From Owenia fusiformis (lineage: Eukaryota > Annelida > Polychaeta > Sabellida > Oweniidae): a DNA stretch of 64,000 nt. Of this stretch, positions 198 to 21,000 are shown piece by piece. Where the stretch lies: NCBI GenBank assembly GCA_903813345.2, contig CAIIXF020000006.1, positions 9,350,989 to 9,414,988 on the forward strand. The letters run 5' to 3'. The position numbers and the translations under genes are program-made. The notes under the pieces are model-generated. The model was given only the letters and a program-made list of their open reading frames with translations. It made no database searches and was not told the origin of the DNA. The stretch's first letter is position 1. Each line of letters opens with the position of its first letter.

Positions 198-1924
198 ATT
201 GAGTGTATACATCAGACGGCAGGTGGACCAGCGACTCTGGGGATTGCTGTATGGTTTCAAGTTACACTTCAACAAAAAAGGTATTTACGCACAAGTCATA
301 TTCTGAGCATATAAGTTTTGAATAAAGGTCTCAGTTGAAAAATTTTTGAATATTTTTCTGTAAAATCATACCTGGCTACATCCGTGATATTGGCAATTTC
401 TTCTGGAACAAAAGTTCTCTTCCAATAAGCCATCAGTCTTTTGAATTTGAACCAAAGCTGATAATCAATATTTGTGCAACTACAAAATGGATGAAAGTAT
501 GGCTTTTCGTTACTCCTTACTAAGCTTCTTTTGGTGGTATGCATAACTCAGAGTCTGGAAATATTTCCACTCAACAAGCAAAGAGCTTAGGAAATACATT
601 TATTTCAAATGTTCATCATTGTTGGTTCCCAATTATTGTCTAATTTTGTACTGTTTGATGAAAGCATGACAATTTTATATGTGATATACTTACCTAACAA
701 ACATGTTTAGGACTATTTGTAACATGTCCTTTCAGGCACAGATATTGAGGCAGGTGGTTTCCCCAACATCCAGTTCAACCCCGCCTCCTCTGTAGAGGGA
801 TGTCTTTACCTCATCACTAAAGAGGAACTTAGCAAATTGGACCAAAGTGTGGGATACCCAGAGGTAGTTTATGTTTTCAAATACATTTTTTCCAAATATT
901 TATAATTATGAGTTTTGAGTGTATCATTGACTTCATAATATCTGAGCTCCATTTACTAAAATAAGGAATTGATGTGGTGTGATTTCATGCATCAGATCTA
1001 TGAGCATGTGATGATAAAATGTCATCAATATGAGCATGTGATATCATATTTCAGCACTAAAAACATGTGATGTCTTATTTGAGCACTATAAACATGTGAT
1101 GTCTTATTTCAGTAATATGAACCTGAGATGTCTTATTTCAGTACTTTGAACATGTGATGTCATATTTCAACACTATGAACATGTAATATCTTCTTTCAGC
1201 ACTATGAACATGTGATGTCTTATTTCAGCACTTTATACATGTGATGTCTTATTTCAGCACTATGAACATGTGATGTCTTATTTCAGTACTTTGAACATGT
1301 GATGTCATGTTTCAACACTATGAACATGTAATATCTTCTTTCAGCACTATGAACATGTGATGTCTTATTTCAGCACTTTATACATGTGATGTCTTATTTC
1401 AGCACTATGAACATGTGATGTCTTATTTCAGGACTTTATACATGTGATGTCTTATTTCAGCACTATGAACATGTGATGTTGCCAGTGTGGATGAGTAACT
1501 CCAGGGAGCCAGACAGTTACAGTGTGGCCCAGTATTGTGTTCCTGCCTTGATGTTTGTAGCTCAAGATAAATGGACTGCAAAAGGTACATATACATTGAT
1601 ATATAAGCAAGGTTTTACGCTACCGTATGAATTTCAATTAAAAAAGGAAAACATAGTGCTTCTGATCTGCTGCATATGTCAGCAGTTAGGAGATTTCTTT
1701 GTTTTGGAACATTACATAATATACAAGTTTACTTCTAGTGCTAAAACTGTTAACGCAGATGTTGCAGATATTAATGCTCCATTGTTGTTTCAGATCACCT
1801 ACTACCCTGTAGTTATGCCGTGGATCAGTGTTTGAAATCTTCCGACCTCCTGACACCTGCCTACAAGCAGCAACTACAGCGCCACCTGGACAATAACTAC
1901 GCACTTGTGCCTGTCAATGGTTAA
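198..1924 (+). CDS. gamma-glutamylcyclotransferase-like (AIG2/GGCT fold) protein, C-terminal four exons
   Basis: Four exons join in frame: 198-280, 736-863, 1461-1584 and 1794-1924 (stop TAA 1922-1924). All four acceptors end in AG and the three internal donors are GT. The joined protein reads through FKLHFNKKG, then GGFPNIQFNPAS, VEGCLYLITKEEL, LDQSVGYPEHYEHVMLPVW, VAQYCVPALMF, and ends LDNNYALVPVNG. The order R-L-x-GF-K-L-x-F, then V-x-G-x-L-Y-x-I, then L-D-x-x-x-G-Y-P-x-x-Y is that of the gamma-glutamylcyclotransferase / AIG2 superfamily, small cytosolic enzymes that release 5-oxoproline from gamma-glutamyl compounds. The N-terminal YGSNL substrate loop must lie in exons upstream of the window. 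Oddity: where the family usually has Glu before G-x-P (the catalytic acid), this protein has Val. Family call is good; enzyme activity is doubtful. Confidence 0.82.
989..1481 (+). repeat. 29-bp minisatellite derived from the downstream splice acceptor
   Basis: Fifteen 29-bp units start at 1047 and repeat without any indel every 29 bp up to and including the real intron/exon junction (unit starting 1453). Two more degraded units occupy 989-1046. The unit is TATTTCAG followed by CACTATGAACATGTGATG and TCT, so each copy carries a polypyrimidine-AG acceptor plus the first codons (HYEHVM) of the following exon. Units starting at 1134-1250 are repeated almost identically at 1279-1395, giving a 145-bp higher-order period. 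Two units (1163 and 1308) have CAA instead of CAG at the splice position. Confidence 0.95.
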
Positions 1925-3035: not shown

Positions 3036-6000
3036 TTAGTCTGAATCATCCTTGTCAAGCTCACCAAATACAGCAGATGGGATAGCTTGCTTTTCCACAT
3101 TCACCTCTGAAAAACAACAGAAAATGAACTTTACAAACAACACGGATGATGCGGAATGAATAATTCTTATAAAGGGCAGACAAATCAAATAAAGTGTTTC
3201 AAGTTCATTATTAGCTAATTCAAGGAAAGTGCAGTAATTTCACTTGAACTTTTTTGTTGTTGAATATTTACCACAGCTTTTTGCAATAAGAGTAGAATCT
3301 TGACCAATGAAGCACAATGTTACCAATATTCCTAAGTTGTAGGATTGTAGAAGTGTAATGTTAATATTCTATTTTCCCCATCCCCTTACTTAGCCAAGAA
3401 CATACCTTGTACAGTTGCCTCATCATCACTAGAGAAGTCATCATCAATATCAATCTCTTCAGGGTTGTTAGTCTTAGTGAGTTCTCCCAACTCCTGGTCT
3501 GTGGTATCACTCCTGGAAAACATAAGATTTATGTCAATGCAATAAGGTTTTAGACAAGAAACAAATAGGGTGGAAATTGGGAACTGAATTCACCAATTTG
3601 GAAATTTTGTAAAATCAATCACTAAATCATTTGGAGGAAGATTGGACAAATATAAAGCAATGACGGTTGAATCTCCAAAATGTTTGGAAAATAAACCACA
3701 CAAATGACATACCTGACGAATAATATTCCCTTGTCTGGTTGTGGAGGTTGATCTTTCATAGACTCCTCTGCCAAAAGTCTGGCCTTTTCTTCTAGTTTCT
3801 TCATCTCATCGCCAGGACCAGCATCTATGAAGGCAATAAGAGAAACATATGATAAGAAGAAATATTCCATTTTGCAGTGCAACTGTTGCAGAAACAATTA
3901 AATAATTGTGTGAATATCTTGGTACCCCTACTGAGTTGTTTTTTGATATTAGTAATGAAAAGAAATTGCGATATTGAAAATTCAATATTTGTCGTGAAAC
4001 TTAACTCTAGGCTAAAAATATAAGTACGGAAAATGATAAAAGTTCTCTCAGATTTCGACTCACTGAATGACATGATGCAGAGTATGCTTATACTACATTC
4101 ATACATACACTGTATAAGTTTAATTATATGTATAGTAGCTTCATATACAAGTTATAGCTTTCTCTTACCTTCATCTACTGCCCCTGACTGAGCTGCAAGC
4201 ATCTGAGCAGACATAAAGTTCACCTGGAAATGAACGCATTATGCATATAATAACATGTACATGTTAAATAATATGATAGACTTATATGTGACCTTCCATG
4301 TGGGCCATGTCCCCACTTGAAATTTGGAAAATAAGAAATACACCTATAAAATCATGAAAATTGGTATATCTGGTTAACTTTGACTGAATATTGTGAAAAT
4401 TGTGCATTTTACCTGTGTATTGAATACTGCTTGTACGCTGCGTTTTACACGCAACATTTCCCTCACTGTGTCTTCATTGCCATGTTTAACTTCAAAGTCT
4501 TTCCAAGTCTGCCAGAATTCTTGAGTAGACTAAAAAATGGAAAAGTATTATATTAATCATAATGTCGCTTAGATCTTTAAGAGCAGAGATGGAGGAATAT
4601 GAATCAAGATGGTATTTTCACAATTATGGTATCTGATCTACTTACTTGTAAATGTATTTCTAAAGACTTATGACTGGGAAGATGAATTCGATCAAAACAG
4701 TATTAATATGGATAAATCAGAAGATTATCTCTTTTATATCAGATCTTTTATTTCAAAACAGTTTCTATTGATGAAACATTGACTTACTCTAGGATCACAC
4801 ATCTGGGAACAATGAGCATATAAGGCTCTTGCACGATCAATTTCTCCCAACTTTCTCTCCAAGTCTGCAAATCTTAGACACATGTCTCTAAAATAAATCA
4901 CACGGAAGAGGTAAAGTTTTATTTCTTCTGGTCTTTCTGGTTTTGAAATGGTGGGGGTACACTTTAACATATGCTAACAATGAAGTTCGCATTGTATGTT
5001 AATATGTATTAATAATAATATGTATGTTACATGCATGTACTTGTTGCTTTATTTCACTTAGATTCCTTATTGTAATTTTCAAACTTTCCAGCACTTGATT
5101 TTGATATACACAAAACAGTTTAATACTCAACATATAATTTTCAAGATTCTATCTTACCTAGATTTGTCTTCTGTTAATACTTCTATGGCTTTCTCATAGA
5201 TGGCTCTAGTGTGAGTGACACCATAAATCTCTGCAGCTTTTTTAATATAAATGTTGAACATCTGAAAAAATCAGCAAAATACAAATTATTTATGTACCTT
5301 ATCCATATAAGCACTATACTACATAGTATATACAGGGTGTTCTAGAAATATAAATAAGCATACTTGATCTTCTTCAAACACAAATTCAGAAGCTAATCGA
5401 AAAATATATGAAGGTCAGATTTTTGGTCTACAAAAATGGATAACTACCTGTAATCTTATTGGCTAAACATGATAAGAAGTCATTCTTGAACCAATCAAAA
5501 TACAGATATCTATATGTTATGAATAGATGTATACTTTAACTCAATTAAAATATGTCTTCAATGTATGAAACTATGGTTACCTCAAATTGTTCCTCAGGCA
5601 ACACAGCTTTGGTTGACCTGTCATATACTGCCATAGCATGCCTTGCTAGACCATGGTCCTCTTCTAATTTGGCATATAATAAATATATTGCTGAAAATAG
5701 AAGATTTCAAATAGAATGAAAATTTCAAGTAAAAATAGCACTGCATTATTGCAATATGTTTAGGTTACTTGAATGGTAATATAATCTGAACTCTTTGTAA
5801 TATGTAACAATGTTACAAACCCTGGTTTGTTATTTGTAAGCCTAGGTGGTGACATAAGAAGGGTGCAGGGCCTATAGTCTGTGAAATTGGTCTGACTAGA
5901 AACGACATATCTGATTCATTCAAACTTCACCTAATTCTACCACTATTCTATTACTCATACTACCATCGACTTATCGAAATCTAAAACTTTTATTGTATTT

Positions 6001-9000
6001 TGAAATCCTATATGACATATCAAAAGTCCTTCAGTAAAGCCAAGCGACATATGCCGTTTCTAAGTGGATGACGCCCATAATTTATATCACTTGTTCAACC
6101 TTGACAATATGTTTATAAAGCTGAGAACAATGTGTAGTTAGTATTAAGATGAATTTTTAGGCTTGGTCATTTAAAGTATGAAACAGTGAAGTGCTATAAA
6201 ATGTGTTTGTTCATTATGTCCTGAATGTTTAAATAGGTACATTGGTTATTTTTTCATGTACAACTGAGAACTCAGGTTGAATAAATTAGACATAGGAATT
6301 ATACAAATAAGAACATCTAGCAAAAATAATCAGATTTAAATCACAGCTACAAGGAAGTAAAGCTGTTCACAATGAAGGTAATATTAAAATATTTTCAAAT
6401 AATAATATTTAAGGAATAAAGACCAAGATTTCATGATTTACGGCGTGATAAATGACCGAAATTTTTATTCTGTTCATTGTTAAAAGACCGAAATTGCGTA
6501 GCAATGGCCAGAATAAAATTTGAGGTCATATATTTGACATAAATCATAAAACCGAGGTCTTTGTTACGATTCTAATATGATAAACAGACAAGAAAAACAA
6601 ATATTTGCATTTTTGAATTTTAGTGGTCATACATACTCCAATATAGACCAGTAAATCAATTGTTCTAGCTATTGTGACGTCACGAATCATATTAGAATAA
6701 GTAATTAATGAAACAAAAAAAATTAGGAATGGTTTTGAACTAATATCTCATCATATATTTTTCATGACTACTGACGGGAAGTGATGCCATCTATACTCTA
6801 AAACTAATATAACAACAAGGGATTTAAGAGAATTCTATCCTCCCTTTTTAATCAATGCGCACATGAGGCATGTCAAGGTATACAAATTCAAGATAATAAT
6901 AATTATTTTATGTTTAATTCAAATGCATACATGAATAAAAATGAAGCAAAACTGACATCACTTCCTGTTAAACTAGACATATATTAATCGGAAAAGATCA
7001 AAACTCAATATAGTCATAGAGTGTAACATTTTTACCTGGCAAAACCAGCCAAGACCAAACTTTTCAGAGACTTTTTCATCCTACTGGGCAAGGTCTGGGC
7101 AGGGCATCATCATTTGCCTTTTGCTCAGTCAGGTCCAAAGAACTTCATGCCCTTATATGGGTATTCCTTTTCAGTGATGTAATACTCTTGAGCTGGCAAT
7201 ATTTTTCTTTTATTTATCAGGTCACATGTAGGACACAGACCAATATCAGAGAGTGGAGAATATAGCAATGATACATTTGTGTTTCCAGATAATAATACTT
7301 TGGGTTATGATTGGTATGATTCCAATATCAATCAGTTATCAAAAGAATAAAGCTGATCTTAGATCTAAGAAGACTATGATCATACCATCATTGGATCCTG
7401 GTACAGCTAAGGGATCAAGGGATCAACCAACAGGTACATATGAAATGTCAGAAACAACAATGAACTCTCTACAAAACCTACACAAAGAAACAAAGAATGA
7501 TGACAACGGCATTATTCCTCCAATAAATATGGAATATGATTCAAACTTCAACAATCAAATTGGAGATTTTTGTGACTGTACCTCTTTATCCTGCAAGTGT
7601 AAAGCAACATCTAAAAAGGAACACTGGCCTTTAGAAACCATTCTGGAATTATTACCACAAAACATTACAAGCCTTCAACTAGACAACTTTGATTTTGGAA
7701 TCCTGAAAAACAATATGTTTAAAAAGTTCAAACTTCATGTTATTTCCATTCGGAACAGTAATTTAACTGGGATAGAAGTCGATGCTTTTCAAAATTTGAA
7801 TAAAATGGTGAAGACAAGTATCGATTTGTCTTCCAATGACATCCAGTTTATAGGGCCTGGAGCATTTAAACATGGAAATGGAACATCAAGGCTGAACATA
7901 AACTATAACTATAATTTGGGACTTCAAAATGTTGAGAACATACTTAAAGATTTTGAGAACAGGGAACTACACGATCTTAGTATGAAGGAATGTGGTATTG
8001 TCATTGACACACTCGATGAAACTTTTTTCAAACCATTACAAACATCAAAGCTTAAATCATTAGATTTATCTGGAAATACAATAAGGTCAATAGCCTATAA
8101 TGCCTTCAAACCAATTAAAGCACTCACAAAATTATGGATTTCAAATTTCATGTACATCAGCCCACCCACCATGAATATTTTAGAGAATCTACAAGACTTT
8201 AGATTATTTGGAGGAATTCAGAAATCAACAGCATCAATACCTACACTGGATGTAAGTGGCCTTCAACATTTGAAACACCTTAGACTTTACCTGTCTGATA
8301 GCACAACAATGAATATAAAAATGAGAGAGTTACCGCATCTGCGTTCTCTTAGGTTAATTGATGCTAAAGATTTTGAAGGATATCGTCATCAAGTGATTCA
8401 ATTACTCAAAAGTTCAAAGTCAATTGGCAGCATTGGCCTTGATGGGAACAATTTGTTCCAATATACAGATCATGAGCTTTGCCACTTGTTTGAAAACAAA
8501 AGTTACGTTGAAGGTTTGAGTCTCACAAGAAACTATTTGACTCATTTACCAGACTGTTTCTTTAAGGGAATGTTCAAATTGCTAGCACTCATCTTAGCAA
8601 AAAATAGGATAATGAACATTCAAAAAGACCTCTTCAAAGACTTATATATCCTGAGCTGGTTGGACCTGTCAGACAATGCATTAATGGTTATTGATTCTGG
8701 GAACTTTGCCTACATGCCTAAATTGAAAAGACTTTTTATACAAAACAATAGCTTTAACTGCAATTGTGAGCTTAATGGATTACGGGACGTTTTGAACGGG
8801 TCAGTCGGAAGATTCAAACAGTATAATTTTGAAAAGTGTAGTATGCCTAAATCCCTGAAACATGAGTTCATACATAACTACACCATACCTTGGATTGAAT
8901 GTAATTCTGGACTGGTCATTACAGTATGTTCTGCAACTGGGGGTTCCCTCATATTTTTAACAATCCTCACACTTGTGTTACTGCATCATTATCGGAAGGA

Positions 9001-12000
9001 CATAAAATATATCAAAATGGTGCGCCAAGCAAGGAGACAGAAGGAAAATGCTCCTATACAGGAACCTCAATATGAGGATGATGCTTTTGTTAGTTACCAT
9101 AGTGATAAACAGTTGTGCAGGGAGTTAGAAAATGGAGATGATATTAAGTTCACACTTATGTACGATGACAGGATCATGCCTGGTGGCTCATTCTTCACAT
9201 CGCTAGGCAACGCTATGTATAGCTGTAGGAAGATCATACTTGTGGTGAGTCGTGGATGGGTAGATGCTGCTCTCAACCAGTTTGAGGTGAGTACAAGAAA
9301 TAATAAAAACAGCAAGTGGTGAGATTTAAAATAGAAAATAACTTCAATTCAATTTCAATTCAGTTCAAATTGATAACATGTTTCCTATAATATTATGAGG
9401 CACTAACAACTGCACATCAAACCGTTCAAGTCAAATCAACACCTCTTCTTCCTTTGGATTGATTTCATAGAATTATATTATCTATCATTTTAAAATTATG
9501 TAATTGGATATGTTTGGAATTTCAAGGCTTAAGATCTGTCCTCCGTATGAGATATCAATTATGGTAGTTGGATCCATAACATTAATATTACATTTGCTTT
9601 AATTCATATTCGAACATGACTGTATTCACGCCTTCTATAAACTGTAAACAAAGTCAACATTTCACCTGGGGTATATTCGCTAACAATACCCCTGGTAATA
9701 TGTATAATGTGTGACGTCATAACGGGGGGAAGTAGTAATGGCGGAATATAATGAATATTCAAAACATTTTGGTGAGTTTTCATGTTCCAATCGTAATATA
9801 GACCTCAGAGCAGGTGTAACATTGTCAAATACACCCCTTAGGGCTAGGCACAAAAGCTTACGAACCCCTCACTCCTTTCAGTCGTTCAGGGTACAGAACA
9901 TGTTTGTGCCTAGCCCTGCAGGGTGTATTTGACAATATTACCCCTGCTCTTCGGTCTATATTTCTTAAATATACATGAGGTAAGAACACTTTGGCGTTTC
10001 AAGTAAAGTTGAAGGGAATTACATTCTTAAAAAGGAGTTTTTCAATTGAGACAATATTTTTCTGATCTTCATCAGATGGATATGGCGCTGGTGACATTGC
10101 TTGATGACCACAAGGACATGATCATTGTGCTCCTCATGGAACACATCCCTAAAGCTGAGATGTCTGACACACTGAGAATGATGGTGAAACACAACACCTG
10201 CCTCAAGTGGAGTGACAATGAGAGAAAACAGGCAAAGTTCTGGAGGGACCTGAAACTGGAACTAGGGAAACATCACTTGGAAGAACCATAAAGCCTGACC
10301 ACAAATCATAGAAGTCGCAAACAACAGGTTTGAACTTTTAGATTCACAGTGAGAATCTAAGATGATATATTGGACCAAATTATATGTATTAATGCCAAGA
10401 TGGACTAATTAGCAAATGGATGGATGAACTTCTGTATTTTCTTATATTGTTATAAATTAAGTAATTTTATTCTGATGTATCAATCAATAACTAGGTAAAA
10501 AGCAATATACCTTTGGCCTCCAAAAGTAACATACCCTTGGTGCACTTGAGCCATTTCTAAAATCACAACTCCTATATGAAACTATATAGATACATGTACA
10601 TACCTTTGGCATATTTTGGAGGGCACCCATCTAAGCATTGTTCAAACAGATCTCTTGCTCTTTCAAGTTTTTTACCACCCTGTAAATATTCACATAATGC
10701 TAATAAAAATATCACATTTTGTTCTAAATAAGTCAAAGATGTCATAAAATACAGAATATATCATGCATGTCAATGTTATATTGCCTAGAATAATGTTTTG
10801 ACATGATTACCACTCAATTATAGAGATCTTAATTGAATGTCTAAATAAACTGTCCGCATAAGCTTCAAGAAATATTTATCCTGATAATACAATATAAAAC
10901 ACTTTACATAGTGTACTTAGTGCACTATTATATATAAATATATTATCCATTCTATTTAAGCATAGCATCTGACAATAATCTTAAAATCTTTCACATTCAT
11001 TTTTTTCAATTTTATTGAATCTGGACATTTGTTCATCTCAATTCTTTAATATTTGATCAAATATCTTAATATAATACTTACATATCTCTCGATGAACTTG
11101 CTGAGGTACTGGTTCCATATATCATATACATTGGGCCACTTGAACAATGCTATTCCCTTCTCATAGGCCTACAACGCAAAATATAAACTGTACTATCTGG
11201 TATATATGCTATGTATATATTTCCTGCATAAAGGTTTTACTGATCAGTTTTAACAGGTATTGAAATTGAAAAGATTAGTGTATATTTACATTACATTATA
11301 TTAGTGTATATTTTTTAGTTTGTGTATGTAAAGTCTTGCTTAATAGTTGGAGAGTAAGAATGATATCAATAGGTTTGAAATTCACTCTGAAAACAACAAA
11401 ATATGTAATAGACTAGATGCGAGTAGAAATGATCTTGATTTACGTCATTAAATATTCAAAATTCAGTCAAAGTGATGTCATATTTGAAATCTACATGTAA
11501 AAATACATCTAAAAATATGGTTTCGAAAATTGTTTATCAACTTTGAAAATTTAATCCTTTTTGAAAATGTGACTTCTAGCTCGGGTTGATTCCCCATAGA
11601 CCCCATATTACAAAATCACAAAAATTGAAATATCTTTTCTTGTATTGGACATATACCATTTTCTTTTACTGGACATACTTTAACTTGCATAACTATTCAA
11701 TACATAAGGGCTATATGAAAATTGAACGACTAAAACAGATGTAATTTAAGTTAAAGGGAAGTTTCTGCTATACCCGCCATGCTATCTGACCCGAGCGAGC
11801 CACCTGGTGGTGAAACTGGTAACTACCTACTCGCATTTGCGTTATTGTGCATGTTGCTTTGTAAAATTGAAATACGCTTCAAGTCAATTTTTAATAGTAC
11901 AACAACTGAGACCAATTGTACACCTTTTTTTAATTGGGATAATCACCTATCAGAATTGTTAATTTAATAAGGATATTACCAATGTTGCAACCAGAACAAT

Positions 12001-15000
12001 AGCACAGAAATACAGTGATCTCCTCAGCATTATAGCAAGTAGACACTGCACCTACTTGAGAATTGAAACAGAAAAGCAACTATTCAACTTACTTGAAAAT
12101 CTATTTATAGCCATTGACATTATAAAAATCATGGCAATGTTGGCATGTGTACTCACTCAAGTTTTTTGACCAATCTTGGTCATAATTGTGAAAATGAGAA
12201 CTTTGCACCTGCTTGAGAAAAAAAAAACTGGGGAGAACACTGAAATAGATTTATTGTTAACCACTTACTCTGAATGCCTCTTCAAAGTAGTTGTTTTCCT
12301 CTAAGAACATTCCATAGTTGATTATGATCTGAGGCGTAGCTATCCGTAGATCTAAGATTCTGTCATATACTGCTTTACAGGACTTGAAAATACAATAATT
12401 ATCCAAGATTAGATTCGTTTTTTGTTTGTTTAATATAGTATGTCAAATAAATAATTATTCAAATTTGGAAAAGATGGGAAATATACATGTAGTGTTGTCA
12501 AGTATTTTTCCCCATACTCACCACAGCTCTGACTCTCCCAGTGCTTATAAATGCTTGTGGCAATTAGCATATGAATATGCTTCTTTGACAAGTACTTGCA
12601 TTATGTAATTGTATAATTGGGACAATTAACAGCAACTAATCCTCTCAACAGAGCAAAGAGCAAATTGTAGTCACTCATAGTTATACTTTAAAAACCATTA
12701 AAATATTGAATTTTAATCCAGTTATTCAGCACTTGGTGGGTCACACATTTTTTTATTATCCAATGGCATTAGAGGATTTCATTCATACCTTATAAGAACC
12801 AAAACTTTCTTCAAGGTCAGCATACATGGACCACAGTTTAAGTGACTTGTATACTCGACTCTGGACTGTTTCTGCCTAAAAATACAATAAATAGTGTTCA
12901 ATTCTCTTCATTTATTGAAACAATGTTCAATGAATGTATCTGTTACTATTTAAACTATATTAAACAAGGCATTTACAATTTACATGACAAAATGTCACCA
13001 CCTGGTTGTAAATATTATTAGAGATTGCAAACTTAACGTCTTCCAATTTGTAATTTGTTTGCAAAGTAACAGATACACTATAACTCAAAATATGATGAAT
13101 CTAATATGTTATATGTGTTCACAGTCAAAATTCCATGTGAATCTGAAAATATATCTGAAAATTATTGCTAATCATTATATATGCCCAACAATGATGCTGA
13201 ATGCTTATATCATATGATGGAAGTCAAAGCGATATAAAACCACTTCTTGGTTGTGACATAAAATAAAATAAAAATTGTTTTACTTCATCGTGGTATGCCA
13301 CTTTTCTGGGAGGAGGTGCTGTTGCTTTCTGCATCAATTTCAATGCATCTTCGTAATTTCTAAAATGAAAGAAGCAAATGCAACACTGGAGATCATTTAA
13401 TTAACTTATACATAAAAATGCAAGATGTTTCGGACTCAAATTATACCATAATATATATATTTGTGATTGATGACTTTATTTAGGCCAAATTGTAAAGGAA
13501 AACAAGAATCACGGTGGCAAATATTTTATACATGTCATGATATAGGGAGAAAATCAATAAACTCAAGGCCTGTGTTACAATTGCTAACTGTATATTGAAT
13601 GCTCTTACTATGCTAGAATATTTTCTCTCCCTATATCTTGACACTGTTGAAATATTTACATGAAATTCAAAACAGTTGCCTCTAAAATTGCCAAACATGC
13701 CCAACAACAATATAGCACTTTTCGATTTGATAAAAAAAGAAAATTGATAAATCCAATCTTTCAAATCCAATCTATATATTCCTCCTTTAGTGCAATCAAA
13801 ATGTGATACAGTACTTCTGATTCTTTTTTACATTCCTGCCTTTATTTATTCATCCTCCAAACACAGGCCTCTAGAACTCGTACCTCATTAGAAGGAAGGA
13901 ACTTAGTGGATGATGTCTGGAACCCTACGTTCGGAAGATGTTATTCATTGTATTATGGAGTTCGATATAACTTTCATAACTTACTCATGTCTAATTTCCA
14001 TCTCTGACCATTCACACCACACAGATGCTAAATCATCAACTTTTTTATATGGTACATTGGTGGCCTTGTCAAATATAATCCTTGCCTAAAGGAAAATAAA
14101 ACAATATATATATTCATAGAATAACAAAGTTACCTGTAATAATTATCCAAAACATATAAATGACAGTTAAAAATACAATGTATCTATGAAAACCTATTCC
14201 AAGCAGCGGTGTAAAAGGGTAGGGAGTGCTATCAAATTTTGGTCCTGCTCTCTATTGATTTATATGGTAACCTTATTATTTATACACAGTCAGGGCCAGT
14301 AAGGTCCGTAAGGAAAAGGGACCATAATCCCCAGGGGACCCTAATTTCTTTTACAGCGGAATAAATTACAAAATTGGTAGATTGCTATTTTCCTCAGTTT
14401 TTTTGCAGTTTTAACAAAAGTATCTATTTATGTAAAAATTGAAAATTCTTTTAAAATAAATACATTATAAGAAAAACTCATTTCTTAATGTTAAATTGTA
14501 AATTTTTAATCCCACCTCCCCCCCCCCCCACACAACAGATTTGTTAATCTTAGAGGTTAGGTTAAAAGATACGATGGGTGGGAGCATGCAAATCATTTTA
14601 GCTCAATCTCTGAATAAAATATGAAAAAATCTTCAAGAATATTCCTAAAGTATTTGTATCACTCACATCATCAAGCTGACCTGCCTCCTCATAGAATTTA
14701 GCAAATGCAACCCAAATGGTATGTAGTTTTCCTGATGCTAACTTTGGGTCTACTGTTTGGACTGCCTCTGTGTAGGTGTTGATAATCTAAAAGAATAATT
14801 GTTAAGACAGTAAGGAATTGCTTGTTTTGTTGGTGACACCCAATCTAGGCCAGGTGCAGATACAGTCATTTAAAGAAATATAATAAATCCTCAACTTGGT
14901 GCGAATGAATTCTTCAACTGGGGCAAATGAATAAAAAAACAACTGAGTGTAAGTAATTACACAATTGGGTGCAAATGAATCTATGACTGGGTGGAAATGA

Positions 15001-18000
15001 ATTTACAATTGGGTGAAAATAAATACATAATTGGGTGCAAATGAATCTATAACTGGGTGCAAATGAATTTACAATTGGGTGCAAATAAATACATAATTGG
15101 GTGCAAATGAATTTACAACTGGGTGCAAATGAATTAACAACTGGGTGCAAATTAATAACATCTGGGTGTAGGTTTATTCTCAATTGGGTGAAGCAATGCT
15201 GAAAGGCTCATTGCATCATTCTCCATGACAACAAAAACTGCACTCACCTCTCTGGGATTTCCCTCATATAGAGTGACGCGTTTATGCCACTCACTGACAT
15301 TGTGCGGGTTCTGTCTCAAGAGCACACTGTTCAATAATAATGGCCGTCTGTCTAGCGTATCCTCCAGTCTCGCCATACGTAGCTCAAGTTCAAGGTCATC
15401 TGAAGATCACAGAACATCAGTGATTAATAGATGAAGATCATTCATGAATGAGTAAATAAATAACAGAAAGTGTTACACTGTGTTACAAGTGTTACACTAA
15501 GAGAGGCCACCCATGAGAGGCACACCCCAGCAACTACAAGATGCTTGGACTGCAACAAGGTCCGGTTATGTGTCACATGTCATAAGAATCATGACTCATT
15601 TCTTCAGGGTCATAAGATACTTGACCTTACATAGAAAAAAAATTTGTAAAAAAGCTTTCCATCAAAACTGAGAAAGTTGTTTCAAAATTAGTTTCATATT
15701 TTTGTGTGAACATTTTTTGTCTCCTTGTACCATAAACAAACATAATATTTCATTTCATTTATTTATTTAACATGATATAAACAGTGTATGTGGAATAGAT
15801 ATGTACAACTGATCTTGCATGGAACCATAACCATGTATTTAAATTGCTTTGAAATATTTTGATCCCAAAAATTGAGTGATAAATTGACTTATCGAAAGAT
15901 GACACTTGATGATTGTGTTTTCCAGTGCCTAAAATAAAATATGTATATGAAGTAAGAAATGAATATACTTTAGAATGAAATAAATATCAAAACAAAGTGT
16001 ATATTATAAATCAATACCTTCTTCAGTAGGTCCTAATTCAGCTGAGGTTTCCATCTTTGCACTGAACATACTCTCTTCAAACTGCGCGTAGGCATCAAAT
16101 ACTTGGGAGAAGTCACGCACAGTGATCACTGATTGTATAGCTTCCTCATAGACATCTCTGGCCTGAAATATAATAAAGGGGCTATTCGTTTAATATTTCT
16201 CTTGTACTTTTGAGAGTATGCATATATCCATGTACATGTTACATGAGATTTTTCCAATTAATTTCAAAATACTGAAAAACATGTAGTTTTTTTAACTGAT
16301 CAGATACATAATTGATTTTTTACCATCCAGCTAAATATTCATTTTGTCATAACTTCTAGAAATCAAAGTTAAGATTCTGCTGAATATACATGTGCTGTAC
16401 ATATGATCCAAAACTGTCACCAATAAAATATTTTGCGCAAAATTGTTTTGCAACACAACATTAAAATAACAATAAAAAAATTGAATGGTATGTCATTTCA
16501 GAGGATAATGATACATGAAAATGATATAAATCCTAACAAACCTTTTCAAAGTGTCCGCCCCTGATGTAGTAGTCAGCTAGTGAGTTCCACAGTAACCCCA
16601 CCTGGTCTGTGTATTTCTTGATTCCCTGTCTGATGATTGGTTCAACCTTCAATGACTTCACTTTATCTGGGTTCTTTGATATCAAATCACATAGTTCATT
16701 CCAGAGCTGCAACATTTAGTATTGATAGATCAGGATAATTTTGGTATATTTCTTAAAAGGGTTAATTTTTTTTAACAACAGACTTTACACTCAGTCTTTC
16801 TTTGCATTGATTTGGTTCCTCTTGTAAAAAAAAATTCAGAAAGACAGAAACCTTAGCTTGGCCAATTTGGGAAAACTAATGCCTAGGTCATACTTGCTCC
16901 AATTCATCGGCCGGCGTCTGCCCGATTGCAGTATTTTGTTCAAAACTTGCTTCAAATTGATCCAAACCCTTTTTTAAACCATGTACAAGTTCTCAGGAAT
17001 TCACATCTGAAATTTGAGATTTGACCTTCAATTTTGAACAAAATGCCTCAATCAGTCACGACAGGCAGCGATGAATCAGAGTAAATGTGACTTAGGCATT
17101 AAATTAGTGTTTGTAATCACATTTTGATCTAATCACATTGACATTTATATGTCTGCTAATGAGCAATCAAAAGTTAGTAAAAATGCTACCTGGTGTTTAG
17201 ATTTTCCAGCTTTTGATACAAAATCTTCTTGGTTGATTATCCTAGCCAATCTCACTGCAGCTTCATCTAGGCGTCCAATAGACTTGAGGTAATCTATGAA
17301 TGACTCTGCATCATCATGGTTCAACTGCAAAAAAATCAGTTAATCAGTAATACCATATTTTTTCTTGAACCTTTTACATAACTGTTACATACGCTAAACA
17401 CTAACCGCCATCTACAAAAAGTTTGAGACTAACAATTTGTCACCTCTTCTGGTGGTGACAGAATAAAACAAGGCATTAACATGACAAAATGTCACCACCT
17501 AGTTGCTCACAATATTATGAGTTCAAACTTAAGTCAGATTTGAATTTCTGAGAACTTGTAAAGTCAAATTTGAACTTCTGAAAAGATGTAGATGATTTTG
17601 AAAAAAAAATTTGGTCAATTTGAAGCAAGTTGAAAACAGACCTTTTTGACCTTTTTTGACCTTGAGAAGGCCATTAAAGGTCAAATGTCAAATCTGAAGT
17701 CAGATTTGAATTTCTGAGAACATGTAGATGATTTTGAAAAAAAAAATTAGTCAATTTGAAGCAAGTTGAAAAAAGACCTTTTTGACCTTTTTTGACCTTG
17801 AAAAGGTCATTGAAGGTCAAATGTCAAATCTAAAGTCAAATCTAAAGTCATATTTGAATTTCTGAGAACATGTAGATGATTTTGAAAAAAAATTTAGTCA
17901 ATTTGAAGCAAGATGAAAAAATACCTTTTTGACCTTTTTTGACATTGAGAAGGTCATTGAAGGTCAAATGTCAAATCTAAAGTCAGATTTGAATTTCTGA

Positions 18001-21000
18001 GAACATGTAGATGATTTTGAAAAAAAATTTAGTCAATTTGAAGCAAATTGAAAAGAGACCTTTTTGACCTTTTTTGACTTTGAGAAGGTCATTGAAGGTC
18101 AAATGTCAAATCTTAAGTCAAATCTAAAGTCAGATTTGAATTTCTGAGAACACGTAGATGATTTTGAACTTTTTTTTAGTCAATTTGAAGCAAGTTGAAA
18201 ACAGACCTTTTTGACCTTTTTTGACCTTGAGAAGGTCATTAAAGGTCAAATGTCAAATCTAAAGTCAGATTTGAATTACTGAGAACATGTAGATGATTTT
18301 GAAAAAAAAAATTAGTCAATTTGAAGCAAGTTGAAAAAAGACCTTTTTGACCTTTTTTGACTTTGAGAAGGTCATTGAAGGTCAAATGTCAAATCTAAAG
18401 TCAGATTTGAATTTCTGAGAACATGTAGATGATTTTGAAAAAAAAATTTAGTCAATTTGAATCAAGTTGAAAAAAGACCTTTTTGACCTTTTTTGACTTT
18501 GAGAAGGTCATTGAAGGTCAAATGTCAAATCTTAAGTCAAATCTAAAGTCAGATTTGAATTTCTGAGAACACGTAGATGATTTTGAAAATTTTTTTTAGT
18601 CAATTTGAAGCAAGTTGAAAACAGACCTTTTTGACCTTTTTTGACCTTGAGAAGGTCATTGAAGGTCAAATGTCAAATCTTAAGTTAAATCTTAAGTCAG
18701 ATTTGAATTTCTGAGAACACGTAGATGATTTTGAAAAAAAAATTTAGTCAATTTGAAGCAAGTTGAAAACAGACCTTTTTGACCTTTTTTGACCTTGAGA
18801 AGGTCATTGAAGGTCAAATGTCAAATCTAAAGTCAGATTTGAAGGTCAAATGTCAAATCTAAAGTCAGATTTGAATTTCTGAGAACATGTAGATGATTTT
18901 GAAAAAAAATTTAGTCAATGTGAAGCAAGTTGAAAAAAGACCTTTTTGACCTTGAGAAGGTCATTGAAGGTCAAATGTCAAATCTAAAGTCAGATTTGAA
19001 CTTCTGAGAACATGTAGATGATTTAGAAAAAAATTGAAGTCAGTCTAAACAGTATTTGTTAAGTTATAGGAAGTTGTAAGAAATTGTTACAGACGCCAAC
19101 CGCCAGACGCCGGACGCCAACCACCAACCGCCGGACGCCGTCGCAAAAAAACGGAGACCATAACAATATGTCACCACTTTTGGTGGTGACATAAAAACAC
19201 CGATAAAAAGATTCCAACTAAAATGCAAGCATAATTTGCTTATTATTTTCAGTGTGTCCTCTCCAGGATAATTTTCTCTGTTGGGTGCAAAATTCTATTT
19301 TTAACGATTTTGACCATATAAAGTCAAAATATGTCTATTGTTAGCGATTCACTTTCTCATTTTCTAAGGTATGAATGAGTTTCCAGGTCAATGCAAGTAT
19401 ATTTTCAAAATATTAATTGTGGGCAATGCTCAGTTTTTTACATCAATTCTGGGATGATTACTGACCTTCATGTATCTCCTGAAGACTCGAACTGCAGTTT
19501 CATGTAGTGGATACAGCTTGATAAACTTCAGGTATAAAGGCCATATTCTGTAATGTTGCGAGATGGGCAAACCACGTAATGCCCGGTCAAATGTCCGACG
19601 AGTACGGACTATTTTTCCTTGGTCCATCAGAAAGTGGCAGTAATCTAACCAGATTCTAGGCATCTAAAAATTTTTTTACAATTCATCTAATTTACAAGAG
19701 CAAAAATTAATTTGTATACAGAACAAACTTTGGCATTGTAATTAAATGACTATAGGTTCAGGTTTATATAATACCTATTATCAAATACAAATGTTCAATT
19801 TCATGATTGCGTGTTATCACTTTTATTTTTCTGCATGTTGAGACAGGGATGAAGGAACAAGGAACTATTATCAATCATTCTTAGAGCTGGTCTCCTGCTC
19901 AATAGCCATTTACATGCCCACAATTTTACCACAATTAATGATCCCAATTGTCCATGTGGTGCAGCTCAACAAACTACTTCTCATTTTCTAATCAAATGTC
20001 CACTGCTCATAAATGAAAGGGAATTGCTTCTTGCAGGACTCAACGAACTGGAATGTTTGCCCGATTTCAGAAATTTAACAATCTCTAAGAAATCAGATAC
20101 ACTTTTGTATGGGGATTCCAACCTTAGTGATGTGATGAATGGCAAAATTATTGAAATCGTGGCTCACTATATCTCAGCAGCAATCTCAGTATTAAATAGC
20201 CAGTGAAACATTCTAAAATCCTTTGGGAACCTTATGGGCGGGATGGGGAGCAAGCATACATACAGACTGAACTTGTATTGTATTTGTATTGTGTAAATTC
20301 CTGTGTTATATTTTAATATTTACTATGCCGCTAATGTTATTAAGTTAACAAAGGCATACTTTTGTAATTATATCAATACCTAGGAATTATAAATAAATTG
20401 AAATTGAAAAAAAAAAAAAAATCATTCTTGTCTATTCAAATCATTATATTATTGTATTAGTAAAAAATATACTGACTTCATAACACATAAAATAAGTCTT
20501 GCATACCTTATGCATAAAGACAAGAGAGCGTTCAAATGCGTTGTTGACATCTTCAAATCCAGGATCTGTAATACAACGGCCCTTCACTTGTTTACGTCTC
20601 AATTTCAGATAATTATACCATAACTTGTAGCTAAAATAAATAAAATAAATACATGTACGGTGAAACTTGTTTCTAGTGAACACCACAGGGCAATGACTCA
20701 GATTGAGTGCAAGTTATTTTTATGTTGCAAGGTCAAGGTTTTAGAAAGGTGCTCATACGTTCCATGTCTTGTGAAAGTATCGTATTTGTATATTACTTGT
20801 CAAAAATGCTCATGTCACTGGTGCAAATCAGGGAAAGAATGTGCGTTCAAAATGTTCCATTCTTAAGAAAGGAGTTGAAATGGAAAAGGATAGAAGAAAC
20901 AGTATTTTATTTAGTAACATCATATCTTACCTTCCAGGTAGTTCTTTCAGGGCTCGTTCATATACCAAATTGACCGCATGTCTTGGTGAGTCTTTTTTGT

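Follow-up and report, generated by a model that had tools for sequence, protein, structure and literature searches.

The third visible coding exon of a gene in the annelid Owenia fusiformis is preceded, within its own intron, by a row of close copies of its 3′ splice site, each followed by a copy of the first codons of the exon. Two questions arise from this arrangement: how such a row of look-alike acceptors came about, and what the spliceosome makes of it. We consider them here for the window, by which we mean a stretch of 64,000 nucleotides (9,350,989 to 9,414,988) of contig CAIIXF020000006.1 in a 498-Mb assembly, most of which is made up of 12 contigs of 32–62 Mb. In the text of the Owenia fusiformis genome paper available to us, the genome is given as 505.8 Mb in 12 chromosome-scale scaffolds (PMC9977687). 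The answer that we hold to be quite probable is that the row is a tolerated “mirage”, an array seeded from the splice junction and grown through slippage or unequal exchange, nearly neutral, and without a dedicated regulatory function.

The array and the gene that carries it

Four exons on the plus strand of the window, at 198–280, 736–863, 1461–1584 and 1794–1924, join in a single open frame with standard splice sites. The first of these was placed by frame continuity, splice sites and a genome protein search, and the others by reading frame and splice sites; the second ends in phase 0, the third has the donor gtacat, and the terminal one carries the stop TAA. The Pfam family GGACT, the GGACT/AIG2-like gamma-glutamylcyclotransferases, matches the product above cut-off over residues 18–96, and this match crosses the junction between the second and third exons at residues 71/72. 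Exon 3 thus very likely starts at 1461, where the preliminary description had placed it, and its first codons lie in a conserved domain. From the reading frame we infer that the acceptor before 1461, with its AG at 1459–1460, is the one in use, and the Pfam match across the junction agrees with it. No first coding exon was identified in the 10 kb upstream, while the four exons are intact. That exon would be expected to carry YGSN, which we take to be a motif of the cyclotransferase family, and a YGSN-bearing frame at about position 4374 of the fetched region L001 was judged unconvincing as a candidate. A PDB search with the 155-residue protein gave nothing at E ≤ 1. A paralogue on C1 has an exon without an intron at the place lined up by eye; it was dropped as proof of the ancestry of the exon since BLASTP gives no alignment of the two proteins.

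The array itself was found by Tandem Repeats Finder at 998–1479 on the plus strand, with a period of 29, 16.6 copies and 84% matches, and again with a period of 145 and 3.3 copies at 1001–1474. Its unit, TCTTATTTCAG followed by CACTATGAACATGTGATG, consists of 11 nt of the 3′ end of the intron and 18 nt of the start of exon 3, and the units are in register with the exon junction at 1460/1461. The terminal unit, at 1450–1478, holds the real junction and the codons for HYEHVM, and 14 clean in-register units lie upstream of it at 1044–1449. Two of these, k=2 and k=7, show no difference from the real unit (29/29 bases), and the AG is kept in 12 of the 14, the units k=5 and k=10 reading AA. The junction 29-mer has a mean identity of 26.6/29 to the 14 upstream units, to be compared with 17.9/29 for the best of 2000 random 29-mers from the window, each taken in its best register. 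The likeness to the upstream units ends at about 1479, which is 18–19 nt into the exon. The preliminary description had spoken of a minisatellite of at least fourteen 29-bp copies in perfect register with the junction, about a dozen of them acceptor-like, and of a unit that is not a multiple of 3; all of this is borne out, and so is its proposal that the array derives from the real junction, to which the register of the units, the edge of similarity and the Pfam match across the junction all point.

As the first codons of exon 3 fall in a conserved domain, the junction was likely the source of the repeat. The reverse order would have the repeat come first and the start of the exon be recruited from it, making the first six codons repeat-derived, and the identity of the terminal unit to two internal ones is what one would expect of it. 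It is nevertheless very unlikely, given that the GGACT match (18–96) runs straight through 71/72 and that, at arrays of the same kind described below, the Wnt, ligand-gated channel, exostosin-type transferase and symporter domains start no more than two residues past the last acceptor. In the sequence of events that we favour, a 29-bp segment across the acceptor of exon 3 would have been duplicated in tandem, which would be the birth of the minisatellite; slippage or unequal exchange would then have lengthened the row and homogenised its copies.

The most recent of these steps may still be visible. The five-unit blocks at 1131–1275 and 1276–1420, two copies of a 145-bp higher-order repeat, are identical at 144/145 bases, which argues that the array is young and the five-unit duplication recent, and which suggests that the length of the array has changed lately; the recent expansion read earlier from the 145-bp repeat therefore holds. 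When the genome was searched with 1189–1479, the array itself was the sole match at E ≤ 0.01, in a search that passes over simple repeats and scores the best candidates only. Minisatellites are hard to assemble, and one may ask whether a short repeat has been falsely expanded or collapsed here. We regard such an artefact as extremely improbable, because the units vary among themselves and are organised into a structured higher-order repeat, and because such arrays occur across the assembly.

Several other features of the neighbourhood may be recorded. The window holds further minisatellites at 17559–18875 and 14892–15157 (units of 136/148 bp and 22/66 bp, by Tandem Repeats Finder). A 689-residue open frame at 7253–9322 on the plus strand, which combines leucine-rich repeats with a membrane span and ends in a TIR-like part, looks by eye like a Toll-like receptor. 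Exons of an SYF1-family splicing factor lie beside the gene on the minus strand of the window at about 5261, 16162 and 21079 (Pfam 7e-11, 4e-16 and 6e-16). On the minus strand of L001, at about 7580–8120, a frame has a 2A-like GGVEANPGP after a hydrophobic stretch, by eye possibly the start of a mobile element.

What the decoy acceptors would do

If a decoy were used, the message would meet an early stop. Followed in the phase in which exon 2 ends, all 12 of the AG-keeping in-register copies run into a stop codon: nine after 14 codons, k=12 immediately, k=14 one codon on and k=13 only after 21. The expectation had been a stop within about 15 codons, brought about by ATG-TGA or ATG-TAA in the next unit; the distance is right for 11 of the 12 and too short for k=13, and the cause is right for nine and wrong for k=12, k=13 and k=14. 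All 12 stops fall 108–524 nt before the last exon junction. Messages with such stops are, by the usual distance rule, targets of nonsense-mediated decay. Each of the 12 decoys thus has what poison splicing calls for, a premature stop well before the last junction, as a potential written in the sequence.

It is tempting to see regulation in this. A share of the transcripts, fixed or regulated, would use the upstream acceptors and be lost to nonsense-mediated decay, and the number of copies would tune the output of the gene. The pyrimidine-AG in 12 of the 14 upstream units, the early stop for all 12 and the length variation that the recent block duplication implies are what such a device would need. 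Two observations weigh against it: the lancelet cases are reported, in the papers as far as they were available to us, to splice regularly, and such arrays also stand before exons of other, unrelated genes, which is more in keeping with a mutational origin than with control specific to one gene. We therefore hold a regulatory decoy array to be unlikely here, and the tuning of mRNA by copy number, for which the geometry of the units speaks, to be less likely in view of the lancelet RT-PCR reports. The production of protein variants through the decoys is the least probable of the readings that we weighed. Such variants would require decoys that are open and in frame. The kinesin locus discussed below has 6 of these among 30, the window locus 0 among 13, a count that includes one decoy outside the 14 in-register units.

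Under the reading that we prefer, the tolerated mirage, the spliceosome would splice exon 2 onto the last copy, the one directly attached to the body of exon 3, presumably because exon definition or other signals on the exon side outweigh the equal sites upstream. Rare leakage to a decoy would meet an early stop and be cleared by nonsense-mediated decay, with little mRNA lost. Since splicing would take the exon-proximal acceptor, the array could be tolerated and be nearly neutral, as far as one assembly can speak to this.

A branch-point difference perhaps assists the choice. The motif TTTAT at 1435–1439 on the plus strand, with its A at 1438 (−23), is a weak, branch-point-like match to YTNAY, and is the sole such match between the preceding AG and the real acceptor at a distance of 15–45 nt from the latter; among the window decoys, 3 of 13 have a YTNAY match in range. 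Branch-point gating is kept as a local possibility at the window locus, and it could make the avoidance of decoys specific to the locus and not positional.

Arrays before other exons of the genome

The array had been treated in the preliminary description as the case of a single gene; searches of the genome show further such arrays before exons of unrelated genes. Triples of TTTCAG spaced 21–51 bases apart number 3589 + 3724 (7313) in the genome, against 860 + 975 (1835) for the reversed control, counts that are inflated by dispersed families and by the hexamer itself, which is commoner than its control (117 to 72 in 81 kb). Arrays were read one by one in four samples. The mixed-period sample held 11 single-locus TTTCAG arrays from C1:1–3.45 Mb, among the matches listed, after two dispersed families (the palindromic TTTCAGTAC and TTTCAGCGGGGCCTCC) and six places without repeat units had been left out. 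By eye, the last unit is the acceptor of a coding exon in 5 of the 11; one array kept in this sample, L010, belongs to the CCGTAAAAACTCC family dropped from the later samples, and leaving it out gives 5 of 10. The exons encode a sushi domain (Pfam 4e-4), a ligand-gated channel domain (Pfam 1e-14), a family-64 glycosyltransferase of the exostosin type (Pfam 6e-8), a UBX domain (Pfam 0.0016, just under cut-off) and a relaxin-receptor-like seventh helix (none in Pfam, PDB 1.9e-7).

The samples of fixed period gave more of the same. At 29 bp there were 13 arrays besides that of the window, among the matches listed of 107, and three of them appear by eye to sit at junctions: those of a Wnt exon (L019, 1.5e-32), a kinesin exon (L024, 1.5e-11) and L018, for which the homology search was negative. 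At 31 bp, 22 arrays remained once the CCGTAAAAACTCC family, a palindromic array on C11, the second of two neighbouring arrays on C9 and the already counted L008 had been set aside. Five of the 22 were called by eye (L042, L045, L053, L056 and L057), and two of these have homology, to an IP3 receptor (none in Pfam, PDB 6e-4) and to a sodium symporter (4.5e-5). At 30 bp there were 21 arrays among the matches listed (to C8), after removal of the ATTTTCAACAGGGT family and of a single CCGTAAAACTCC array; two (L068 and L076) look junction-like by eye, and homology was found for neither. All samples together, 15 of 67 arrays end on the acceptor of a coding exon by eye, nine of them with homology support; the junctions were called by eye and homology was sought afterwards, with nine plausible arrays scanned in the 30- and 31-bp samples. 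The homology match starts at residue 1 or 2 past the last acceptor for the ligand-gated channel, the glycosyltransferase, UBX, Wnt, the symporter, the relaxin receptor and the IP3 receptor. The five arrays in 3.45 Mb scale to about 720 per genome (95% Poisson 234–1685), an estimate built on one hexamer, one spacing range, the start of one chromosome and junction calls made by eye.

A few arrays of other aspect turned up in the survey. Three 30-bp TTYCAG arrays (L060, L061 and L074) resemble, by eye, coding repeats and not splice-site arrays. At L022 (G000:C9:7239500-7241000) a cysteine-rich exon on the opposite strand seems by eye to end at a donor only a few bases from the start of a 29-bp array.

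The Wnt locus is the most telling of the set for the choice of acceptor. It has 32 upstream copies that keep the AG, of which 28 do not differ from the real site in the final 18 bases of the intron; a YTNAY match is in range for all 32, and in the phase of the exon each of the 31 scored copies would lead straight into a stop. Were these decoys used in proportion to their number, or on a first-come basis, the gene would be left barely working, which suggests that they are mostly ignored. With the intronic signals equal at some loci, as they are here, the choice of acceptor would have to draw on information from the exon side. Branch-point gating fares poorly as a general rule: not only at the Wnt locus, but also at L018 (12/12) and L005 (12/13), the decoys have YTNAY, and at L006, L011, L013 and L024 the real site is without a YTNAY in the scanned range.

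The early stops of the window locus, too, are only in part a common trait. At the nine loci there are 189 AG-keeping decoys, and 6 are in frame and open, all of them at the kinesin locus (6/30). An earlier count with another match rule, over eight of the nine loci, had 161 decoys, of which 152 stop before the exon and none is both open and in frame. Seven loci fetched in part have 3 open in-frame decoys among 30. In-frame open decoys thus exist at some loci, and the quick stops mark the window locus and some others but not the class. These same decoys (6/30 and 3/30) tell against selection against in-frame units, an idea that was also tried on the samples: junction arrays make up 13 of 46 in the mixed-period, 29-bp and 31-bp sets and 2 of 21 in the 30-bp set (Fisher p=0.12), or p=0.05 against 13/46 if one of the two is accepted. 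The idea was set aside as too weak.

Whether acceptors are hot spots for such arrays was approached by a comparison with single TTTCAG sites. By eye, 8 of 24 array ends open on a coding exon, and for single sites the number is 9 of 117 (p=0.002). With Pfam, taking the longest frame after the site and E ≤ 0.01, a known domain follows 6 of 24 array ends and 5 of 54 single sites drawn at random (Fisher p=0.08). The Pfam figures have to be read with the handling of both sides in mind. Among the arrays, 5 of 24 had no 20-codon frame, L015 was unscanned and L026 was entered in a hand-picked frame; array peptides were cut at 60 residues or trimmed by eye, and control peptides were cut at 80. The window, L001 and L002, all of them gene-bearing, supplied the control sites, and Pfam missed real exons there, namely 736–863 and 1794–1924 of the window gene. 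An excess of arrays at acceptors is thus suggested by the counts, modest in size and by Pfam not significant, and the many minisatellites of this genome together with a word as rich in acceptors as TTTCAG may explain part of it.

The donor side yielded less. GTAAGT triples number 7095, against 6536 for the reversed word, and the single hexamer stands at 29 to 96. Nine GTAAGT loci were sampled with the dispersed GTAAGTAGCTGAGTAAGTAG family left out; two (L029 and L032) had no array row, and of the seven assessed one, L035, is a candidate. At this locus (G000:C1:15532100-15533700) a GTAAGT array starts at a possible 3′ end of an exon, with a DCAF17 match of E=0.01 that is below cut-off, and it is a possible donor-side mirage.

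Some observations on the genome as a whole may be added here. The linker chains of annelid extracellular haemoglobin form the family PF16915, which is not known outside annelids. It has four matches at C6:27.03–27.05 Mb, three of them above cut-off alone, including one with an internal stop, and the fourth together with its neighbours; none of 14 control genomes has a match. Lancelets have more chromosomes than 12. A GFP exon was not found in the genome by a search run without a positive control. The linker matches, the 12 large contigs and this negative search would lead away from a cephalochordate host.

Comparison with known systems

Several known phenomena share one feature or another with the window array. 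In NAGNAG tandem acceptors the two sites are 3 nt apart; the spacing here is 29 nt. Intron gain by tandem duplication is alike in that a tandem duplication has consequences for the introns of a gene, and differs in that it places a new intron between the duplicated splice sites, whereas the window array multiplies 3′ splice sites within an existing intron. The ABCA7 intronic VNTR is likewise a repeat in an intron of a protein-coding gene and can influence its splicing, although its unit, unlike that of the window, is reportedly not a copy of the gene's own acceptor. Closer still are the internal tandem repeats at exon–intron boundaries in human segmental duplications, described in the text available to us as having an average unit of 30 bp and as giving alternative splicing through novel introns (PMC2812944). 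These, too, are minisatellites at the exon–intron boundaries of genes, but by that account half of them lie within coding exons, while the copies in the window sit in an existing intron and copy its acceptor.

Among annelids, our literature search on minisatellites with splice, boundary and annelid terms turned up no case that we recognised. In the portions of the sources that could be consulted, the word minisatellite is absent from the main text of the Owenia genome paper (PMC9977687), and a paper on earthworm metallothionein describes minisatellites in intron 1 that are not linked there to copies of a splice site. Arrays named mirages were reported for lancelets only, in the literature searched and to the extent that its texts were available.

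The lancelet mirages are the nearest relatives of the window array. They were described as tandemly duplicated intron–exon boundaries in globin and Adh3 genes (PMC3087553) and in TnC and PGBD5 (PMC3902484), and in the parts of these papers at hand the authors report or infer that the globin, Adh, TnC and PGBD5 mirages do not disturb regular splicing (PMC3087553, PMC3902484). As far as those accounts go, the two share a minisatellite-like duplication of the intron–exon boundary, the keeping of AG or GT by many units and the homogenisation of the units; BflGb6 of amphioxus resembles the window array further in repeating the 3′ end of the intron together with the 5′ part of the exon. The units of the window span a real intron–exon boundary (11 nt of intron and 18 nt of exon 3) and many, though not all, keep the splice signal (AG in 12/14), and the array is by its structure a mirage. 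Mirages are further marked by a length that varies between haplotypes or cells, and in the window array the block duplication (144/145) suggests a recent change. The differences, on the same accounts, lie in the length of the unit (29 bp here, 150–160 bp in BflGb6 and 10–72 bp in Adh3), in the host, a cephalochordate there and an annelid here, and in the kind of evidence, haplotype and splicing data there and genome sequence here.

What appears to be new, as far as we have searched, is the annelid setting and the apparent abundance of acceptor mirages. We put forward, as a tentative proposal that may well prove wrong, that acceptor mirages occur genome-wide in this annelid lineage, perhaps at several hundred loci, that they arose independently of those of lancelets, and that the spliceosome chooses among their acceptors by exon-side information and not by taking the first suitable or first-transcribed AG. 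If this is true, the arrays are a ready natural series for measuring the rule of acceptor choice: at loci where a large number of 3′ splice sites are equal and only the one nearest the exon leads into it in frame, first-AG scanning could be tested directly against transcription order and exon definition. The interest of the case rests on this series of loci more than on the GGACT-like gene. Set beside the mirages of lancelets, the annelid arrays before Wnt, kinesin, ion-channel and transporter exons suggest that the mutational copying of splice junctions is general and that splicing tolerates it.
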